Below, piece after piece: positions 34,389 through 41,044 of a stretch of 64,000 nt of DNA. The notes under the pieces are model-generated. The model did not search any database, was not told where the DNA came from, and saw only the letters and a program-made list of their open reading frames with translations. Position 1 is the first letter of the stretch; each line of letters starts with the position of its first letter. A program made the position numbers and the translations under genes. Source of the DNA: Pseudoalteromonas sp. EB27 (lineage in GTDB: Bacteria; Pseudomonadota; Gammaproteobacteria; Enterobacterales; Alteromonadaceae). The DNA is taken from positions 1-64,000 of the forward strand of contig NZ_MTQD01000005.1 in NCBI RefSeq assembly GCF_001974875.1, written 5' to 3'.

Positions 34389-34889
34389 ATGAGTGAATAC
34401 GCACGTTACTTTACCGGCTACCCAGCTAACATTGTTGAGCAAGTATTAAGCCTTATAAATAACAAAAAGGTATGTGACTACTTACTTAAAAAGTACCCGC
34501 AAGCACATACCATTACTAGCGATAAACTACTTTATAGCTATGCAACCGAGCTTAAAAAACAGTATTTAAAAAATGCGCCACCATTTGGTCGTGCAGCATT
34601 TAAAAAGCAAGGTGACATGGTTACTAATGCACTTGGTACACATACTTATCGAATGCAAGGTAAAACCCGCAAACACGATTTAGCGATAAACAGCGACTTA
34701 CTCCGCGCTCCCGAGCCATTATTAAAAGCGTTAGTGGTACATGAGCTCGCCCACTTTAAAGAAAAAGATCACAACAAAGGCTTTTATCAACTTTGCTGCC
34801 ATATGGAGCCGAGTTATCACCAGCTAGAGTTAGATTTAAGAATTTTTTGTGTGGTCGTCGCAATGGGAGAAAATCCTTATTTAAAATAA
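34389..34889 (+). CDS. YgjP-like metallopeptidase-domain protein (DUF45)
   Basis: 166-residue protein with the zinc motif HELAH at residue ~119 followed by FKEKDHNKGFY, the pattern of the YgjP/DUF45 (M48-like, WLM-related) family. The third ligand is a downstream histidine (DHNKGFY). E. coli YgjP has 167 residues, so it is full-length. N-terminal half (GRAAFKKQ, KTRKHDLAINSDLLRAP) carries the basic patch typical of the family. Substrate unknown. Follows the YecE-like gene and likely shares its promoter. Confidence 0.85.
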   Translation: MSEYARYFTGYPANIVEQVLSLINNKKVCDYLLKKYPQAHTITSDKLLYSYATELKKQYLKNAPPFGRAAFKKQGDMVTNALGTHTYRMQGKTRKHDLAINSDLLRAPEPLLKALVVHELAHFKEKDHNKGFYQLCCHMEPSYHQLELDLRIFCVVVAMGENPYLK

Positions 34890-35119
34890 GGATTTTACCG
34901 TTGTTTAACTGAGTGAAAATAACGCCCATGCTTAAGTTAATATTTCCTTCCATAACCAAGCGTTCATACCCAGTCTTTTATCCCCGTAAGCAACTCACAA
35001 CTTAACGCCTGTCCTTAATAAAAACAAAAAGTTTAAAACTACATAATTGCCCTACATTTGAGAACTACACTCTGTAATAGCTAATTCTTTCTATGTACTC
35101 TTAATCTTTGGAGTTTTAA

Positions 35120-37303
35120 ATGATGAAAAATACCTATGCCTTTTTACTCAGTGCACTGTGCTGTGTAACCTTAAGTGCCTGCAACGAGCAAAACAGCCAA
35201 TCACTTCAACAATCAAACCTCAATGATTTTACTCTAACAAGCTCAAAGGTAAGCGGTGGCGGTAACTTGCCTATTACTTATACGTGCGATGGGCAAAGCA
35301 TTAGCCCTCCACTTAACTGGAGCGGTGCACCTGACACAACCAAATATTATGCATTAATTATGGATCATAAAGCGCCAGAGGGAATGCATTGGTATTGGAC
35401 CATGTATAATATTACCGCCGATAAAACACAAATTAAAGCGGGCGAAACTCTCGGTGAAGTAGGCTCTAATAGCGTAAACGATTTAAACCAATACGCACCG
35501 CCTTGCTCTAAAGGTCCGGGTGAAAAAAGCTATACTTATACTGTGTACGCGTTATCTGCACCGGTTACCTTTAATAGCGATACAAAAGTAGATCGCTCAG
35601 CATTACTCGCTGCTGTAAAAGATATTACGCTCGATACTGCAAGTATGACGGTTAAATACTCGCGAAGCGCCAATAGCGCCGAGCACAAACCTAATGCAAG
35701 ACCAAAACCAAATGAGCAACCAAAGCCTGATAAATCATATTTAACCGCTAACGTAAAATCACCTCGTTGCGATGCTATTACACAATCAGTGAGTAATGCA
35801 GGGTTTGATAAAAGCGTATCTGTTACGTGCGATGAACAATATGCTTATATTGCCTCATCTACTTATCCTGATCATGAAGTAATGACTGGTATTACAGGTA
35901 CTAACGAGCAAATACCCGTTCCAGCTAAAGACTACGCCGCACCTATAAAACTAAATCCTAAAAAAGCGAAAGCAATTACTACAATTGATGCAGCCGTAGG
36001 TGTTGCCGTTAATGGCGTACCAATATACGACTATTCTTCGCAAGGCGAACTAGACGTAAATAGCTACGATGAGAAACACGACACTTTAGCACTCGGACAG
36101 TTAGATATATGCGGCGGACACGCAGGACGAGGTGATGACTACCATTACCACGTATCGCCAACGTGTATGATTGACACAATGAAAAACCAATCAAGCGATG
36201 CCATTATTGGTTGGGCTTACGATGGTTACCCGCTCTATGGTAGTAAAAACCCAGACGGCAGTGCAATTGCCAAAGGTGACCTTGATGTATGTAATGGGCA
36301 AGCCGACGACACATTTGGCTACCGCTATCAAACATCAGCTACGCCGCCGTATATTATTCAGTGCTTAGTAGGTGAAGTAGATACCGCAAAATTACCAAGA
36401 GTGTCACCATTGAATGGCGATACTCAAGGTATAAGAGCCGACTTGCGCCCGCCACAAGGAGGCGTTAAAAACCTAACGCACACAATCTCTGAAAACGGCA
36501 GCCGTACAATGAGCTATTCATACAAAGGCGAAAACTACTTTACTACGTACAGCCCTGCATCAGAGGGAAAAGACTGTTATAACTTTAAACAAAAAACTAT
36601 CAGTAATGGTGGCAAGGTTCAAACAGGTACATTTTGTAGAGGTCCGCAACCAAATCACCTTACTCCTACAGTCACTAAGCAAAATACAAATCCTGCCATT
36701 ACAGGCAAGCATAACTTAAAGCTAGAAGCATGGGCTGATAACTGGTTTACAGCCTACATAGGCGAGCAGTTACTTGTTGAAGATTCTGTGCCTATAACCA
36801 CAGAGCGTTCATTTAATGCACAAAGCATTACGTTTTCTGCAAACTACCCTATTGAGCTTAATTTAATAATTAAAGACTTTAAGCAAAACGACACTGGGCT
36901 TGAATACATCGGCGCTAAAAATCAGCAAATGGGTGATGGCGGTTTTATTATGCAACTTACCGACACCAATACAAATAAAGTGGTTGCGGTAAGCAATAAA
37001 AGCTTTAAATGCGAAATACTTCACAAAGCGCCGCTTAACAAATTATGCGAAAGCGAAACAAACCCTGTTGCGGGCGAAGGCGCTTGTACGTTTATGTCAA
37101 AAGAAGCACCAACTAACTGGCTGCAAAGTAACTTTGACGATACGAATTGGGCTAATGCAGTAGAGCACAACTTTGCCGATGTAGGACCAAAAGACGGTTA
37201 CGACGATATTAACTGGGATGAAAACGCAAAATTCATATGGGGCGAAGACTTAGAAACCGACAACACCCTTATTTGTAAAGTAACTATTGAGCAACCGCTA
37301 TAA
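35120..37303 (+). CDS. PEBP-YHYH fusion lipoprotein
   Basis: 727-residue predicted lipoprotein (lipobox LSAC, Cys ~21). Residues ~35-182 are a YbhB/YbcL-type phosphatidylethanolamine-binding (Raf kinase inhibitor-like) domain: TYTCDGQSISPPLNWSG, APEGMHWYWTMYNI. Residues ~205-500 carry a YHYH domain, with DDYHYHVSPTCM (~335) and nearby IGWAYDGYPLYGS. The C-terminal ~200 residues form a jelly-roll-like region with YDDINWDENAKFIWG. Cysteines are frequent and probably paired. Function unknown; the His cluster may bind a metal (inference). It begins a four-gene run with an exported protein and a BaeSR-like pair. SD TTGGAGT before the ATG. Confidence 0.85.
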   Translation: MMKNTYAFLLSALCCVTLSACNEQNSQSLQQSNLNDFTLTSSKVSGGGNLPITYTCDGQSISPPLNWSGAPDTTKYYALIMDHKAPEGMHWYWTMYNITADKTQIKAGETLGEVGSNSVNDLNQYAPPCSKGPGEKSYTYTVYALSAPVTFNSDTKVDRSALLAAVKDITLDTASMTVKYSRSANSAEHKPNARPKPNEQPKPDKSYLTANVKSPRCDAITQSVSNAGFDKSVSVTCDEQYAYIASSTYPDHEVMTGITGTNEQIPVPAKDYAAPIKLNPKKAKAITTIDAAVGVAVNGVPIYDYSSQGELDVNSYDEKHDTLALGQLDICGGHAGRGDDYHYHVSPTCMIDTMKNQSSDAIIGWAYDGYPLYGSKNPDGSAIAKGDLDVCNGQADDTFGYRYQTSATPPYIIQCLVGEVDTAKLPRVSPLNGDTQGIRADLRPPQGGVKNLTHTISENGSRTMSYSYKGENYFTTYSPASEGKDCYNFKQKTISNGGKVQTGTFCRGPQPNHLTPTVTKQNTNPAITGKHNLKLEAWADNWFTAYIGEQLLVEDSVPITTERSFNAQSITFSANYPIELNLIIKDFKQNDTGLEYIGAKNQQMGDGGFIMQLTDTNTNKVVAVSNKSFKCEILHKAPLNKLCESETNPVAGEGACTFMSKEAPTNWLQSNFDDTNWANAVEHNFADVGPKDGYDDINWDENAKFIWGEDLETDNTLICKVTIEQPL

Positions 37304-37339
37304 ACAAAAAGGTCTCCGCTTCAATAAAAGGTAATGATT

Positions 37340-37846
37340 ATGTATTTTTTTAAAAAATTAAAATGGCTAATGCTAGCGTGTATTTTAACAAGTATGTGCG
37401 CTCAAGTGAGCGCACATGTATTAAAAAACACAACAGCCCAAGTAATTTTAAGAGATGGACAAGTTGAAGTAAAAGTATTAACTAATGCTGAGCATTTAAT
37501 CTCAGCGCTGCAAAGCGAGCAAGCATGGCTTATGGGCGATATTGATAAGCTTATGCCTACAAACTTAAGTGCAGAGCAACAAGAAGAGTTTGTAAAAAAT
37601 GCACTTAAACAAAAAACGAGCTTACGTGTAAATCAGCAAGTTATCGTGTTTGAACGCGTCGTTTTTACCACCAGCAACAACGAAGCGCACGACCTAGAAA
37701 TTGTTTTTCAAGCGAAGCACTCATTTACAACAGTAGATGAACTTGCCATATCGTTCCCTAAAAGTTTAGGTGCAGTACACGCAAGCTTTGTAAAACCACA
37801 ATATAAGTTACTGGGTGCTGGCGATACCGCAAAAATAAAGTTCTAG
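37340..37846 (+). CDS. Exported protein of unknown function, next to the PEBP-YHYH gene
   Basis: 168-residue protein with a Sec signal peptide (KKLKWLMLACILTSMC ... SAHV, cut near AQVSA|H). The mature part begins with H and is a beta-rich domain (AQVILRDGQVEVKVL ... HASFVKPQYKLL). That layout is reminiscent of periplasmic domains beginning with an N-terminal His, but I cannot assign a family. The ATG at 37340 is preferred because AAAAGG lies 8 nt upstream; the ATG 6 nt earlier is too close to it. It is 36 nt after the YHYH gene, in the same transcription unit. Confidence 0.7.
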   Translation: MYFFKKLKWLMLACILTSMCAQVSAHVLKNTTAQVILRDGQVEVKVLTNAEHLISALQSEQAWLMGDIDKLMPTNLSAEQQEEFVKNALKQKTSLRVNQQVIVFERVVFTTSNNEAHDLEIVFQAKHSFTTVDELAISFPKSLGAVHASFVKPQYKLLGAGDTAKIKF

Positions 37847-37869
37847 CCCAAGAATCAACATACCTAAAA

Positions 37870-37896
37870 GCTTACTTAAAAAGGATTTTAGTAAGC
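37870..37896 (+). terminator. Weak hairpin between the exported-protein gene and baeS
   Basis: GCTTACT/AGTAAGC arms with a 13-nt A/T-rich loop and no T-run. It may attenuate rather than stop transcription into baeS. Confidence 0.4.
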
Positions 37897-37962
37897 AACT
37901 CCCTAAATACGCTAATTGTAGGCACATAATCAATATGCAATACTGCTTGGTACGTTAACGTC

Positions 37963-39426
37963 ATGATCTTTACTATTTGCCAATCAGTGAAATTAATACA
38001 TAAATTCTTTTTAGCTTTTTTTATCACTAATATCGCCCTTGTTGGGCTTATGTTTGTGTTTATATACATGACCTTTTCGTCAGGTTTTAACGGCTTTATT
38101 GAACAAGAAGAAACAAAACATGTAGCAATGGTTAAGCATCAACTTATTGAGCTTTATAGCGGATTAGGCAGTTGGCAACCCATTACACAAAGCACGCAAT
38201 TATGGCGCTCTATTGTAGAGCCGCAAAAAAAGCCAGGCGAGCCCAAAGCGAATAAACACACAAGCACCCCACCCAAACCAAATAACAGCAATGCAACGCC
38301 TTCTTTATTGTGGGTACACTTACCTGCAGGTTCCCTTAAAACAGGGCAACGTATAAGTTTATATGATCAAAATAAAAAGGTTGTTATTGGTAGGGCTAAT
38401 TTAAACGACAACCCACATATAGAACCTATTTTATTAAACAATAACGTTATAGGCTGGATAGGTTTAGTACCTTCAAAACTTGTGCAAAGTAGCCCAACAA
38501 AAGCATTTTTAGCAGCGCAATTTCATAACTATTTTATGATCACATTACTCGTTATTGTGCTCGCATTTATTATGGCTATTGTGTTATCTCGCCATTTAAT
38601 AAAACCAATAAAGCAAATAGTGACTGGCACCGATGAGTTAACAAAAGGAAATTTTGCCAGCAGAATCATCCCCTCTAGTAAAGATGAGCTAGGTACCCTA
38701 TCCAACAACTTTAACGCCTTAGCCCACACGCTTGAGCAAAACCAACAAATGCGATTCCAATGGGTGTCAGACACATCCCACGAATTAAGAACCCCACTTA
38801 CTGTACTACGCTCGCATTTACTAGCCGTGCAAGATGGCGTATTTACAGCCGACACAAAGCGTATTAATTTACTCATAAACCAAGTAGATAACTTAAGTCA
38901 CATTGTTGACGACCTAGCTCAACTAGCACAAACAGATAGCGTTAATTTAACCTATGACAATGCGCGCATTGATTTAATCACTATTTTTGAGCAATCAATT
39001 GAAAACTACACCGCTCGCTTTAAAGAGCGTGAATTAAATGTAGACAGCAAAAGCTTAACCAAAGCCGGCAAATGTACAATAAATGGCGATAAAGAACGCC
39101 TTGTACAATTATTTTCAAACCTGTTAGAAAACACCTGCAGATACACGCATAAAGGTGGGCAAGTAATAATACTTGCCAACAAAACACACAATAATATTGA
39201 GCTTATTTTACAAGACTCAGCACCAAGTGTTTTATCAAACGACTTACAAAAATTGTTTGAGCGTTTTTATCGCGTTGAAAAATCTCGAAGCCGAGAGCAC
39301 GGCGGCTCGGGCTTAGGGCTTGCACTTTGCAAACAAATAGTAGAAGCACATGGTGGTCAAATATCGTTGCACAACTCACCACTTGGTGGGCTAGAAGTTA
39401 AAATAACGCTGGCACTTTTAGGTTAA
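37963..39426 (+). CDS. baeS: Envelope-stress sensor histidine kinase BaeS
   Basis: 487-residue membrane kinase. Two transmembrane helices (~15-35 and ~190-210) flank a periplasmic sensor. That domain includes a Lys/Pro/Asn-rich stretch (~85-110) not expected in E. coli BaeS. Then HAMP, the phosphoacceptor H in SHELRTPLTV (~274), N-box NLLENTCRYT, the diverged G1 box LQDSAPSVL and G2 GGSGLGLALC. The DSAP variant of G1 and the C-terminal IVEAHGG match E. coli BaeS closely. BaeSR responds to envelope stress and toxic compounds or metals in E. coli. It is 4 nt before baeR. The exact start could also be the GTG 24 nt later. Confidence 0.88.
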   Translation: MIFTICQSVKLIHKFFLAFFITNIALVGLMFVFIYMTFSSGFNGFIEQEETKHVAMVKHQLIELYSGLGSWQPITQSTQLWRSIVEPQKKPGEPKANKHTSTPPKPNNSNATPSLLWVHLPAGSLKTGQRISLYDQNKKVVIGRANLNDNPHIEPILLNNNVIGWIGLVPSKLVQSSPTKAFLAAQFHNYFMITLLVIVLAFIMAIVLSRHLIKPIKQIVTGTDELTKGNFASRIIPSSKDELGTLSNNFNALAHTLEQNQQMRFQWVSDTSHELRTPLTVLRSHLLAVQDGVFTADTKRINLLINQVDNLSHIVDDLAQLAQTDSVNLTYDNARIDLITIFEQSIENYTARFKERELNVDSKSLTKAGKCTINGDKERLVQLFSNLLENTCRYTHKGGQVIILANKTHNNIELILQDSAPSVLSNDLQKLFERFYRVEKSRSREHGGSGLGLALCKQIVEAHGGQISLHNSPLGGLEVKITLALLG

Positions 39427-39430
39427 AATA

Positions 39431-40108
39431 ATGGCATCACAAAAAATACTTATCGTTGAAGACGAAGAAAACATTGCAGAGGTACTTATTGCCTACGCTA
39501 AGCAACAAGATTACGAAACTGAGCACTTTAATAGCGGCAAAGGTGTAGTTAGTTTTGTAAAACAAAACGCAGTAGATTTAATACTTCTTGATTTAATGTT
39601 GCCAGATGTTGATGGCATAGAGCTATGTAAGCAAATTAGAGCCTTTTCAAGTGTGCCTATTATTATGCTTACCGCAAAAAGTGAAGAAATAGAACGCTTA
39701 CTGGGTTTAGAGCTCGGCGCCGATGACTACATATGCAAACCTTTCAGCCCTAAAGAAGTTATAGCGCGCATACAGGCAGTACTAAGAAGGACCAGCCAGC
39801 CTAAAACCAACATCATCAATCATAATAATTTTCAATTACACAAAGACGATTACGAAGCGCGCCTAAACGGCAAAAGTATTGGCTTTACCGCCGTCGAGTT
39901 TAAAATATTTTTACTATTTATAAGCCACGTAGGTCGTGTTTTTACCCGCGAAGATATTATTAATAACGTATACAGCGACACAACCGACATATACGATCGC
40001 AACATTGATACACACATTAAAAATATACGAAAAAAGATTAACGACGTTCAAGCAGGACTAAACCCAATAGCGGCAGTTTATAGCGTAGGTTATAAGTTTA
40101 AAGAGTAG
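39431..40108 (+). CDS. baeR: OmpR-family response regulator BaeR
   Basis: 225-residue regulator. Receiver with acidic E10-D11, phosphosite D54 (LILLDLMLPDVDG), T and K at conserved positions. The C-terminal winged helix has FTREDIINNVY ... DRNIDTHIKNIRKKI. The block MLTAKSEEIERLLGLELGADDYICKPFSP is nearly the E. coli BaeR sequence, which is why I name it. Partner of the adjacent kinase. Its likely targets are the upstream lipoprotein and exported-protein genes plus efflux genes outside the window (inference). Confidence 0.9.
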   Translation: MASQKILIVEDEENIAEVLIAYAKQQDYETEHFNSGKGVVSFVKQNAVDLILLDLMLPDVDGIELCKQIRAFSSVPIIMLTAKSEEIERLLGLELGADDYICKPFSPKEVIARIQAVLRRTSQPKTNIINHNNFQLHKDDYEARLNGKSIGFTAVEFKIFLLFISHVGRVFTREDIINNVYSDTTDIYDRNIDTHIKNIRKKINDVQAGLNPIAAVYSVGYKFKE

Positions 40109-40140
40109 GTTTACTTATTCAAATAAAGCTAACATGACGA

Positions 40141-40172
40141 AAAAGCGCGATATAAATCGCACTTTTATTTTA
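40141..40172 (+). terminator. Terminator of the baeSR transcription unit
   Basis: Stem GCGAT/ATCGC extended by AAAAG/CTTTT, followed by ATTTT. Confidence 0.82.
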
Positions 40173-40291
40173 ATCACTAATCTGATCGCTAACAGCTAAA
40201 GATTAATAGCTGAGCAGTCGTTAGGTATCGTTTCACTCAACCCAAAGCTGACACATATCTGTTTTGGTGTTGTGAAGAATCAAACTGAATA

Positions 40292-40327
40292 TCAGCCCCA
40301 AGCTATTTAAAGAAAGCTTGAGGCTGA
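40292..40327. terminator. Hairpin downstream of the DUF3334 gene
   Basis: TCAGCC-CAAGCT/AGCTTG-GGCTGA with one bulge, between convergent genes and without a clear T-run. The remaining 40173-40357 holds no gene I can see. Confidence 0.5.
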
Positions 40328-40357
40328 TTAGAAGAGATGGTATCTACGTAAATAAAC

Positions 40358-41044
40358 TTAAAGCCCCAGGCCTGCCATAAAATCATCATCACCATCATCT
40401 TGCTCTACTGCTTTAGATGATTTTTCTTTGTCCGCTTTTTTACGAGCTTCGTTTTCAATTATGTCATCTGGGTCTAGTGCTTCTGCTATATCAAAGTCGT
40501 GTAATTTAATAAACTCTGTTTTATCCATCGCTAATTCCAAGTAAAAAATATTTTGTTTACTTGTGGTGAATGTTACGCGGCGGGCCTGCGGGCGATCCAT
40601 TGTGGTATCTACCGATATTTGCACTTGCTTATTTATTGCCATCATTTTTGGCTGATTTTGTGTAATAGACGTATGTAATTGCTCGCGTACTTTAGACGTA
40701 AAGTCGCCAACAATTTGGTTCATTAACTCGCCTAATACGTTTGATACGTCGTCTGATAAATGGCTATGCGCTATTTCATCTTCTGGCATCCCCATGTTGC
40801 GCATGTAATCGCCATAAATTTCCATCGCCGCTTGCGAAGTAAAGTTGGTAATTACAAGCCCGGTAAAACCGCCGTCAAATAAAACAAAGCAGCCAATATC
40901 TGGTCGCATGCATGTACGCGTTATTTTTTGCACCATGGCTGAGTAGCTAATACCATTACCGCTGGCTGATGTGAGTACGCCTGTCACTGAATGACAAAGG
41001 GTTGCTAATATATCGTCTGTGCTAATGACCTTACTTTTGCTCAT
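40358..41044 (-). CDS. DUF3334 family protein, CheC/CheX-like fold
   Basis: 228-residue cytoplasmic protein. It matches the DUF3334 family by overall pattern. The segment NVLGELMNQIVGDF (~101) carries the E-x2-N-x3-G motif of the CheC/CheX phosphatase fold, and YSAMVQKITRTCMRPDIG is a family-typical block. A charged C-terminal tail (KKADKEKSSKAVEQDDGDDD) ends in FMAGLGL. Role uncertain; a signalling phosphatase related to chemotaxis is possible, but no che genes are here. SD AAGAGAAG before the ATG. Confidence 0.8.
   Translation of the reverse strand: MSKSKVISTDDILATLCHSVTGVLTSASGNGISYSAMVQKITRTCMRPDIGCFVLFDGGFTGLVITNFTSQAAMEIYGDYMRNMGMPEDEIAHSHLSDDVSNVLGELMNQIVGDFTSKVREQLHTSITQNQPKMMAINKQVQISVDTTMDRPQARRVTFTTSKQNIFYLELAMDKTEFIKLHDFDIAEALDPDDIIENEARKKADKEKSSKAVEQDDGDDDFMAGLGL

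Follow-up and report, generated by a model that had tools for sequence, protein, structure and literature searches.

A mobile PEBP–YHYH lipoprotein cassette of Pseudoalteromonas with a predicted anglerase-like exported protein and an adjoining two-component system

The Ang-1 domain, one of the anglerase domains described in Pseudomonadota, carries an N-terminal histidine that is reported to be 100% conserved and to act as a copper ligand, together with a second copper ligand, Asn41, that is not conserved (PMC12537917). The same article reports that DUF6702 binds Ni, Co and Cu. YHYH domains are called 'enigmatic' in PMC7824862, where the phage-tail form is predicted to be a Zn hydrolase with three His and one Asp. 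Here we describe a four-gene mobile cassette in the first 64,000 nucleotides of contig NZ_MTQD01000005.1 of Pseudoalteromonas sp. EB27 (this whole stretch is referred to as the window). The cassette encodes a PEBP–YHYH lipoprotein, a 170-amino-acid exported protein that we name P170 and that resembles Ang-1 in its predicted fold, and a sensor kinase and response regulator whose best-matching families are BaeS and BaeR.

We lean towards reading the cassette as a self-regulated envelope metalloprotein module, with copper as the first candidate metal. P170 would then bind metal in the periplasm or act as a chaperone for it, and the lipoprotein with the YHYH domain would be a metal-dependent partner induced through the kinase. 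It is P170 that points to metal; the PEBP domain and the kinase supply no such evidence. We favour copper on the grounds that the structure closest to P170 belongs to a copper protein, with Zn or Ni as other possibilities.

The cassette and its exported protein P170

The cassette consists of four co-directional open reading frames (ORFs) on the + strand, as are all features given below with start..end coordinates: the lipoprotein (35120..37303), P170 (37334..37846), a BaeS-like sensor kinase with HAMP, HisKA and HATPase domains (37963..39426, or perhaps from the GTG at 37987, judging by relatives that start at MKLIHKFF) and a BaeR-like response regulator of the OmpR family, assigned with Pfam and NCBIfam models (39431..40108). 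Genes were taken as the longest ORFs; for export and cleavage we relied on simple rules and patterns rather than on a trained predictor.

P170 begins with a signal-peptide-like N-terminus by pattern, in agreement with the original prediction of a small exported protein after the lipoprotein. No Pfam family matches it at E<=1, in a search that included LTXXQ CpxP/Spy, PF20420 (DUF6702) and PF13795, and sequence searches of the PDB with P170 gave nothing credible. A model of P170 built from 9 sequences (predicted local distance difference test, pLDDT, 68) is closest to 9GCE, the structure of a HupE/UreJ-2 Ang-1 domain with copper bound (Foldseek E 4.9e-8; VIA Z 10.3, root-mean-square deviation 3.7, 127 aligned). 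The next matches, ZrgA and PA4063, were both solved with Zn (Z 7.8–9.3), and other folds reach Z<=6.4. The predicted helices of the model lie between strands 2 and 3, as in the immunoglobulin (Ig)-like beta-sandwich of Ang-1.

The predicted first residue of mature P170 is His28 (codon 37415-37417), assigned from the alignment and the cleavage pattern. This residue is invariant in 19/19 aligned P170 homologues, where the residue before it is Ala, Gly or Ser and the site resembles a cleavage site. A regular expression for cleavage and His fits 30 of 31 P170-like ORFs, and the ORF in L062 also has the His, beyond the range of the expression (L-numbers designate loci and G-numbers genomes, G000 being the 4.5-Mb genome of the window). 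Profile–profile comparison aligned P170 with the N-terminal domains of HupE/UreJ-2 permeases over 138 columns (E 5.5e-6, probability 86); the HupE/UreJ-2 profile (A9) was picked for N-terminal His and includes signal peptides, so its score may be inflated. It combines four extracted N-terminal domains with L110, all with N-terminal His, the domains being those of this order, for which nine ORFs had been extracted by a motif rule from fetched loci. At the level of sequence, the match supports homology between P170 and the HupE/UreJ-2 N-terminal domains. The same type of comparison between P170 and the lipoprotein found nothing.

The 727-amino-acid lipoprotein has the lipobox LSAC and, as had been proposed from the ORF translations, joins a PEBP domain to a YHYH domain, both scoring far above their Pfam cut-offs. 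The PEBP domain spans amino acids 50–180 (35267..35659; PF01161, 1.3e-19, 71.4 bits against a cut-off of 24). The YHYH region (amino acids ~209–515; 35744..36664) is the part common to PEBP-less homologues; within it PF14240 matches amino acids 276–376 (1.3e-21, 77.9 bits against a cut-off of 25), and the His motif of the family is also present, as the triad H334/H342/H344. A third, C-terminal domain without a Pfam match (amino acids ~537–726; 36728..37297), recognized from the ORF, Pfam scan and alignment, had been overlooked in the original prediction. Across open-access full texts (preprints and most subscription papers lie outside this scope) we found no paper pairing the YHYH domain with phosphatidylethanolamine-binding; the YHYH domain is named there for phages, and we found no functional study of it.

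At E<=1e-3, PF01161 finds the lipoprotein and no other protein in the genome. Its PEBP part gives profile matches to the 3N08, YbcL and YbhB chains, and the lipoprotein scores 50.5 against TIGR00481, below the cut-off of 57.75. Canonical PEBP anion pockets bear the motifs DPDxP and GxPHxY. In the lipoprotein family the pocket is not canonical: an invariant Lys136 replaces the His of GxPHxY, and DHKAP, HHNAP or similar sequences occupy the DPDAP position in the alignments. With the pocket altered in this way, canonical PEBP ligands are doubtful.

YHYH genes and their exported partners

The pairing of YHYH with a small exported protein extends beyond the class of the window. A PF14240 scan found YHYH in 29/197 genomes of the order, and 40 regions around hits were fetched, covering part of them. 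With the window's own class left out, 20 of 39 YHYH genes had a small gene close downstream; all 20 of these partners are exported by rule and 15 have a predicted N-terminal His. For the 257 other nearby genes that served as a control, the corresponding numbers were 38 small close downstream genes, 8 exported and none with N-terminal His. The enrichment of N-terminal-His partners (Fisher 4e-15 per gene; 4e-4 among exported ones) refers to survey genes that were not reduced by identity and are partly related to each other. In a version covering all loci, the 84 YHYH genes were thinned at 75% identity to 59 representatives; since many of these loci were our own choice, relatives of the window are over-represented in it. 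Here 38 representatives have a small close downstream gene, of which 38 are exported and 32 have a predicted N-terminal His, against 174 small close genes, 52 exported and 4 with N-terminal His among 912 control genes.

The partners fall into several classes. In the p174 class, N-terminal AH is present in 7/7 aligned sequences, an EF-hand-like loop scores below the Pfam cut-off, and the class profile aligns with the N-termini of HupE/UreJ-2 (E 5e-8, probability 95). Searching the PDB with p174 brought up just EF-hand calcium loops, none of which reached per-domain significance in the two alignments shown. The p106 class also has N-terminal AH, with a Cys. The partner in L140 is DUF6702 itself (PF20420, 28.4 bits against a cut-off of 24). 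In a single case (G246), a whole HupE/UreJ-2 protein with N-terminal His is encoded 51 bp downstream of a YHYH gene. Next to a YHYH gene of class c we also observed a HalD-type halogenase (PF23169, 73.8 bits), which lies directly downstream at L132:4733-5602.

The YHYH proteins themselves share the motif H-x(n)-YH[YFH]H in 59/59 representatives, and the YHYH region is highly conserved over ~300 amino acids. This triad, taken with the published phage-tail prediction (PMC7824862), could also mean that YHYH is a Zn-dependent hydrolase acting on an envelope or external substrate, to which P170 would donate metal and PEBP would contribute as an inhibitor or lipid-binding domain. The resemblance of P170 to the Zn-bound ZrgA and PA4063 structures fits such an enzyme. 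However, the closest P170 fold is that of a copper protein, and no peptidoglycan gene is seen beside the cassette at the window locus; we consider the hydrolase unlikely.

A broader extension of the metalloprotein reading is possible but tentative, namely that YHYH proteins are widespread envelope metalloproteins, many co-encoded with an N-terminal-His metallochaperone of the anglerase, DUF6702 or another type and some with a dedicated two-component system, the PEBP–YHYH cassette being one mobile form. The repeated operon link to N-terminal-His metal-binding types gives YHYH a testable role.

Regulation, spread and proposed mechanism

Upstream of the lipoprotein gene lies a conserved operator-like box, CTACATAATTGCCCTACATTTG (35039..35060), where the response regulator of the cassette probably binds. 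This 22-base box occurs with <=3 mismatches in 10/12 class-1 cassettes (a count that omits L002, which is nearly identical to the window), whereas the best sites elsewhere in those loci have 5–8 mismatches. It is positioned 44–78 bp upstream of the lipoprotein start, the sequence beyond having diverged, and a putative -10 element, TACACT, lies 5 bp past it (35066..35071), with similar elements visible by eye in aligned relatives. Among diverged cassettes, L051 and L053 carry a related box in the same position and L057 one further upstream, and two Psychrobacter remnants retain the box with 1-2 mismatches. Across the 4.5-Mb genome, the box is found at <=3 mismatches at one site, and a reversed control at none; where no kinase is adjacent, the box is missing from 8/9 versions (8-10 mismatches). 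Its single occurrence in the genome and its absence from most loci without an adjacent kinase point to a dedicated, local regulator and not to a wide BaeR-like regulon, a conclusion that the sequence comparisons support. A possible second promoter, for the regulators, is TTGTAG-N17-AATACT (37916..37944), picked out by eye in the intergenic comparison; TATGCAATACTG precedes the kinase gene in 7/8 compared P170–kinase intergenic regions, being absent in L006, and is spaced 17 bp from a TTGT element in 5 of those 7.

The original prediction treated the regulators as BaeSR with key blocks near-identical to those of E. coli. Short blocks do agree, but overall identity to MG1655 BaeS and BaeR is 38% for the kinase and 44% for the regulator. 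BaeS and BaeR are the best-scoring models, although scores of 415 of 500 bits (kinase) and 262 of 380 (regulator) fall below the NCBIfam equivalog cut-offs. In E. coli, mdtC and mdtD precede baeS; here no RND or efflux family was found among the seven ORFs scanned (33.4-41.0 kb). With sub-threshold scores, no nearby efflux gene and one operator in the genome, we do not retain the identification as BaeSR. A search of the open-access literature for Pseudoalteromonas BaeS gave nothing relevant by title among the matches listed. The Lys/Pro/Asn-rich periplasmic insert that had been highlighted in the kinase exists (38224..38301), but its length and sequence vary and it is missing from the orthologue in L085; we rejected it as a sensor element, because the kinase alignment identifies it as a variable, unconserved linker.

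NlpE and CpxP are signal-input proteins for CpxA, and the lipoprotein and P170 could similarly feed the kinase, the whole cassette then being an envelope-stress sensor. The gene order, co-inheritance with the kinase and the envelope-stress type of BaeS-like kinases all fit this. However, YHYH and P170 occur without an adjacent kinase orthologue in L050, L052, L054-L056, L063, L083 and L087. In two such genomes, G009 and G027, the best kinase matches are 36-38% over partial length; among cassette-less genomes, 2/5 have a similar partial match and the other three none at 1e-60. G445 has a 32% match, but the genome of L083 (G245) has a 47% identical kinase elsewhere. Of the survey YHYH representatives, only 4/37 lie within three genes of both a kinase and a regulator (control: 0/254 genes with paired-YHYH loci left out, 6/276 without that exclusion), and P170, lacking any Pfam match, has none to the CpxP/Spy family. 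A sensor of this kind is therefore improbable. Of the four survey pairs, the kinase and regulator of L098, L104 and L135 score best as BaeS/BaeR, and the pair adjoining the C-terminal-domain/YHYH protein of L131 scores best as the CopS/CzcS heavy-metal type, all below the cut-offs.

The four genes are a mobile cassette. The conserved neighbourhood that the original prediction called for is found: the gene order is kept in Pseudoalteromonas, Pseudocolwellia, Aliiglaciecola, Leucothrix and Psychromonas, with all four genes in the same order in 8 of the 12 loci found (L002-L009), L009 lacking the C-terminal domain. L010 and L011, two parts of a single genome interrupted by a contig end, were excluded from alignments; L012 and L013 (Psychrobacter) have the PEBP part only. 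These Psychrobacter PEBP parts (L012:8001-8767, L013:8001-8639; ~90% identical) may be what is left of the cassette, since a short tail match in another frame suggests that L012 is a decayed copy. Leucothrix belongs to another order, yet its lipoprotein and kinase (68.5% and 68.6% identical to those of the window) are no more distant than those of Pseudoalteromonas MMG007 (65.5% and 64.7%). An orthologue in P. distincta is 96% identical.

DUF72, YgjP and DUF3334 flank the cassette in just some Pseudoalteromonas loci. In 40 sampled congeners, with gaps computed by hand, YgjP and DUF3334 are 79-274 bp apart in eight with no cassette at that site (G001, G009, G013, G043, G064, G065, G096 and G105) and ~5.4 kb apart in G000 and G008. 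The nine congener regions viewed at this site mostly hold other genes (purA-like and LysR-like by eye), and G013 and G090 have the cassette elsewhere. The interval (window 34886-40361) is thus a variable chromosomal site that is near-empty or holds the cassette or other genes; DUF3334 (window 40358-41044) is CheX-like (PF13690, 4.6e-8) and present in 40/40 of the congeners. A genus-wide search matched the lipoprotein in 80/108 genomes, mostly as single domains, and the long form in 8, one of them split over contigs.

The two-component control, the spread over several genera and the variability of the chromosomal site also recall resistance cassettes, and the proteins could merely sequester toxic metal in the periplasm. 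We give this low probability, as the cassette contains no pump, oxidase or reductase family and the conservation of ~300 amino acids of YHYH suggests more than binding.

The architecture varies around a core. YHYH with P170 is the most constant pair in the 20 regions mapped, and YHYH adjoins 7/8 strong P170 matches in the order. P170 is rare, with matches at E<=1e-3 in 11/394 genomes of the order and 5/398 of the phylum (sets that overlap) and none at 1e-5 in 72,556 plasmids. The PEBP part is absent from L056, where a weak Ig-like match below the Pfam cut-off stands in its place; the C-terminal domain is N-terminal to PEBP–YHYH in L058-L060 and to YHYH in L131; the kinase/regulator pair is missing from some versions; and a different exported partner replaces P170 in the L058-L061 type. 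On Loktanella plasmids, the three domains are encoded singly by neighbouring genes, first YHYH, then PEBP, then the C-terminal domain, which indicates that the window lipoprotein joins domains that share an operon elsewhere. The Loktanella operon is preceded by a PAS-domain protein and a GEVED protein.

Other arrangements were seen at single loci. A 1013-amino-acid Big_2–PEBP–YHYH protein and P170 are followed by a TonB-dependent receptor at L050:6519-13135, which would fit metal uptake. At L049:7721-14897, two PEBP–YHYH lipoprotein genes, one of them spread over two overlapping ORFs, flank one kinase/regulator/P170 set. The window's genome has a paralogous cassette (G000:C5, L098:5661-10060), with a 566-amino-acid YHYH protein, a His/Met-rich exported protein of 176 amino acids, a BaeS-like kinase (30% identity) and a BaeR-like regulator. 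There is a weak P170 match in G575; another, in G320, was dismissed as its ORF looks acetyltransferase-like by eye.

For the metalloprotein module that we favour, we propose the following mechanism. The kinase would sense a periplasmic condition, most likely whether a transition metal, with copper as the first candidate, is in excess or available, and phosphorylate the regulator, which would bind the CTACATAATTGCCCTACATTTG box and activate the lipoprotein/P170 operon. P170 would be exported and cut so that His28 becomes residue 1, could, like the Ang-1 domain, hold metal by a mono-histidine brace, and may pass the metal to, or share it with, the His triad of the YHYH domain. The lipid anchor would hold the YHYH lipoprotein at a membrane, probably the outer one, where it may act as an enzyme or a sequestering protein, with PEBP and the C-terminal domain as accessory ligand-binding or scaffold domains. 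The earlier suggestion of a regulator-controlled module for metal or lipid stress survives in the conserved co-directional unit and the operator at the likely promoter, and the metal link is its best-supported part.

Several observations weigh against this proposal. The first 30 residues of the P170 model, including His28, mostly have pLDDT <50, so that the metal site is not visible in the model, and cleavage before His28 was assigned by pattern. Besides the selection of the HupE/UreJ-2 profile described above, 4/9 of the extracted domains have no N-terminal His (they start ADE or ADD), and P170 and p174 align just around the signal peptide (probability 23). No small close downstream gene accompanies 21/59 YHYH representatives (including L110-L118 and L120-L122), p176 partners have no N-terminal His by rule (the one in L098 is His/Met-rich), and G235 has a strong P170 homologue without YHYH alongside. 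The model of the whole lipoprotein (pLDDT 45) gave no YHYH structure. On the regulatory side, the box has 5 mismatches in L006 and is absent from L004, a full cassette, and from L049, which has a diverged kinase; in L083 it is present without an adjacent kinase. The kinase alignment has no conserved His/Met/Cys cluster in the sensor domain, and the seven ORFs scanned at the cassette include no copper-homeostasis gene.

Comparison with described systems

The regulators share with E. coli BaeSR their best-matching kinase and regulator families; they differ in scoring below the cut-offs, in not being linked to mdtABCD and in having a single operator, at their own operon. The lipoprotein likewise resembles YbhB/YbcL PEBP proteins in exceeding the PF01161 cut-off, but lies below TIGR00481 and has an altered pocket. 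With PF14240 YHYH proteins, including phage-tail forms, it has in common the Pfam match and the His triad; unlike these, it is a lipoprotein of bacteria whose chain also includes PEBP and a C-terminal domain, with an N-terminal-His partner.

Among periplasmic metal binders, ZrgA and PA4063 are the second-best structural matches of P170, and DUF6702 is the YHYH partner in L140, whereas P170 itself has no Pfam match. The likeness is closest to the Ang-1/Ang-2 anglerase domains (9GCE; PMC12537917), with which P170 shares a predicted fold, export, a His after the likely signal peptide and occurrence in Pseudomonadota; the main text of that article does not mention YHYH, PEBP or BaeS. In contrast to HupE/UreJ-2 anglerase, P170 is free-standing, with no permease part (170 amino acids, no PF13795 match), and its operon partners are a YHYH lipoprotein and a two-component system. 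This comparison suggests that domains of the anglerase type may also function free of a permease, as parts of regulated mobile modules in marine bacteria.

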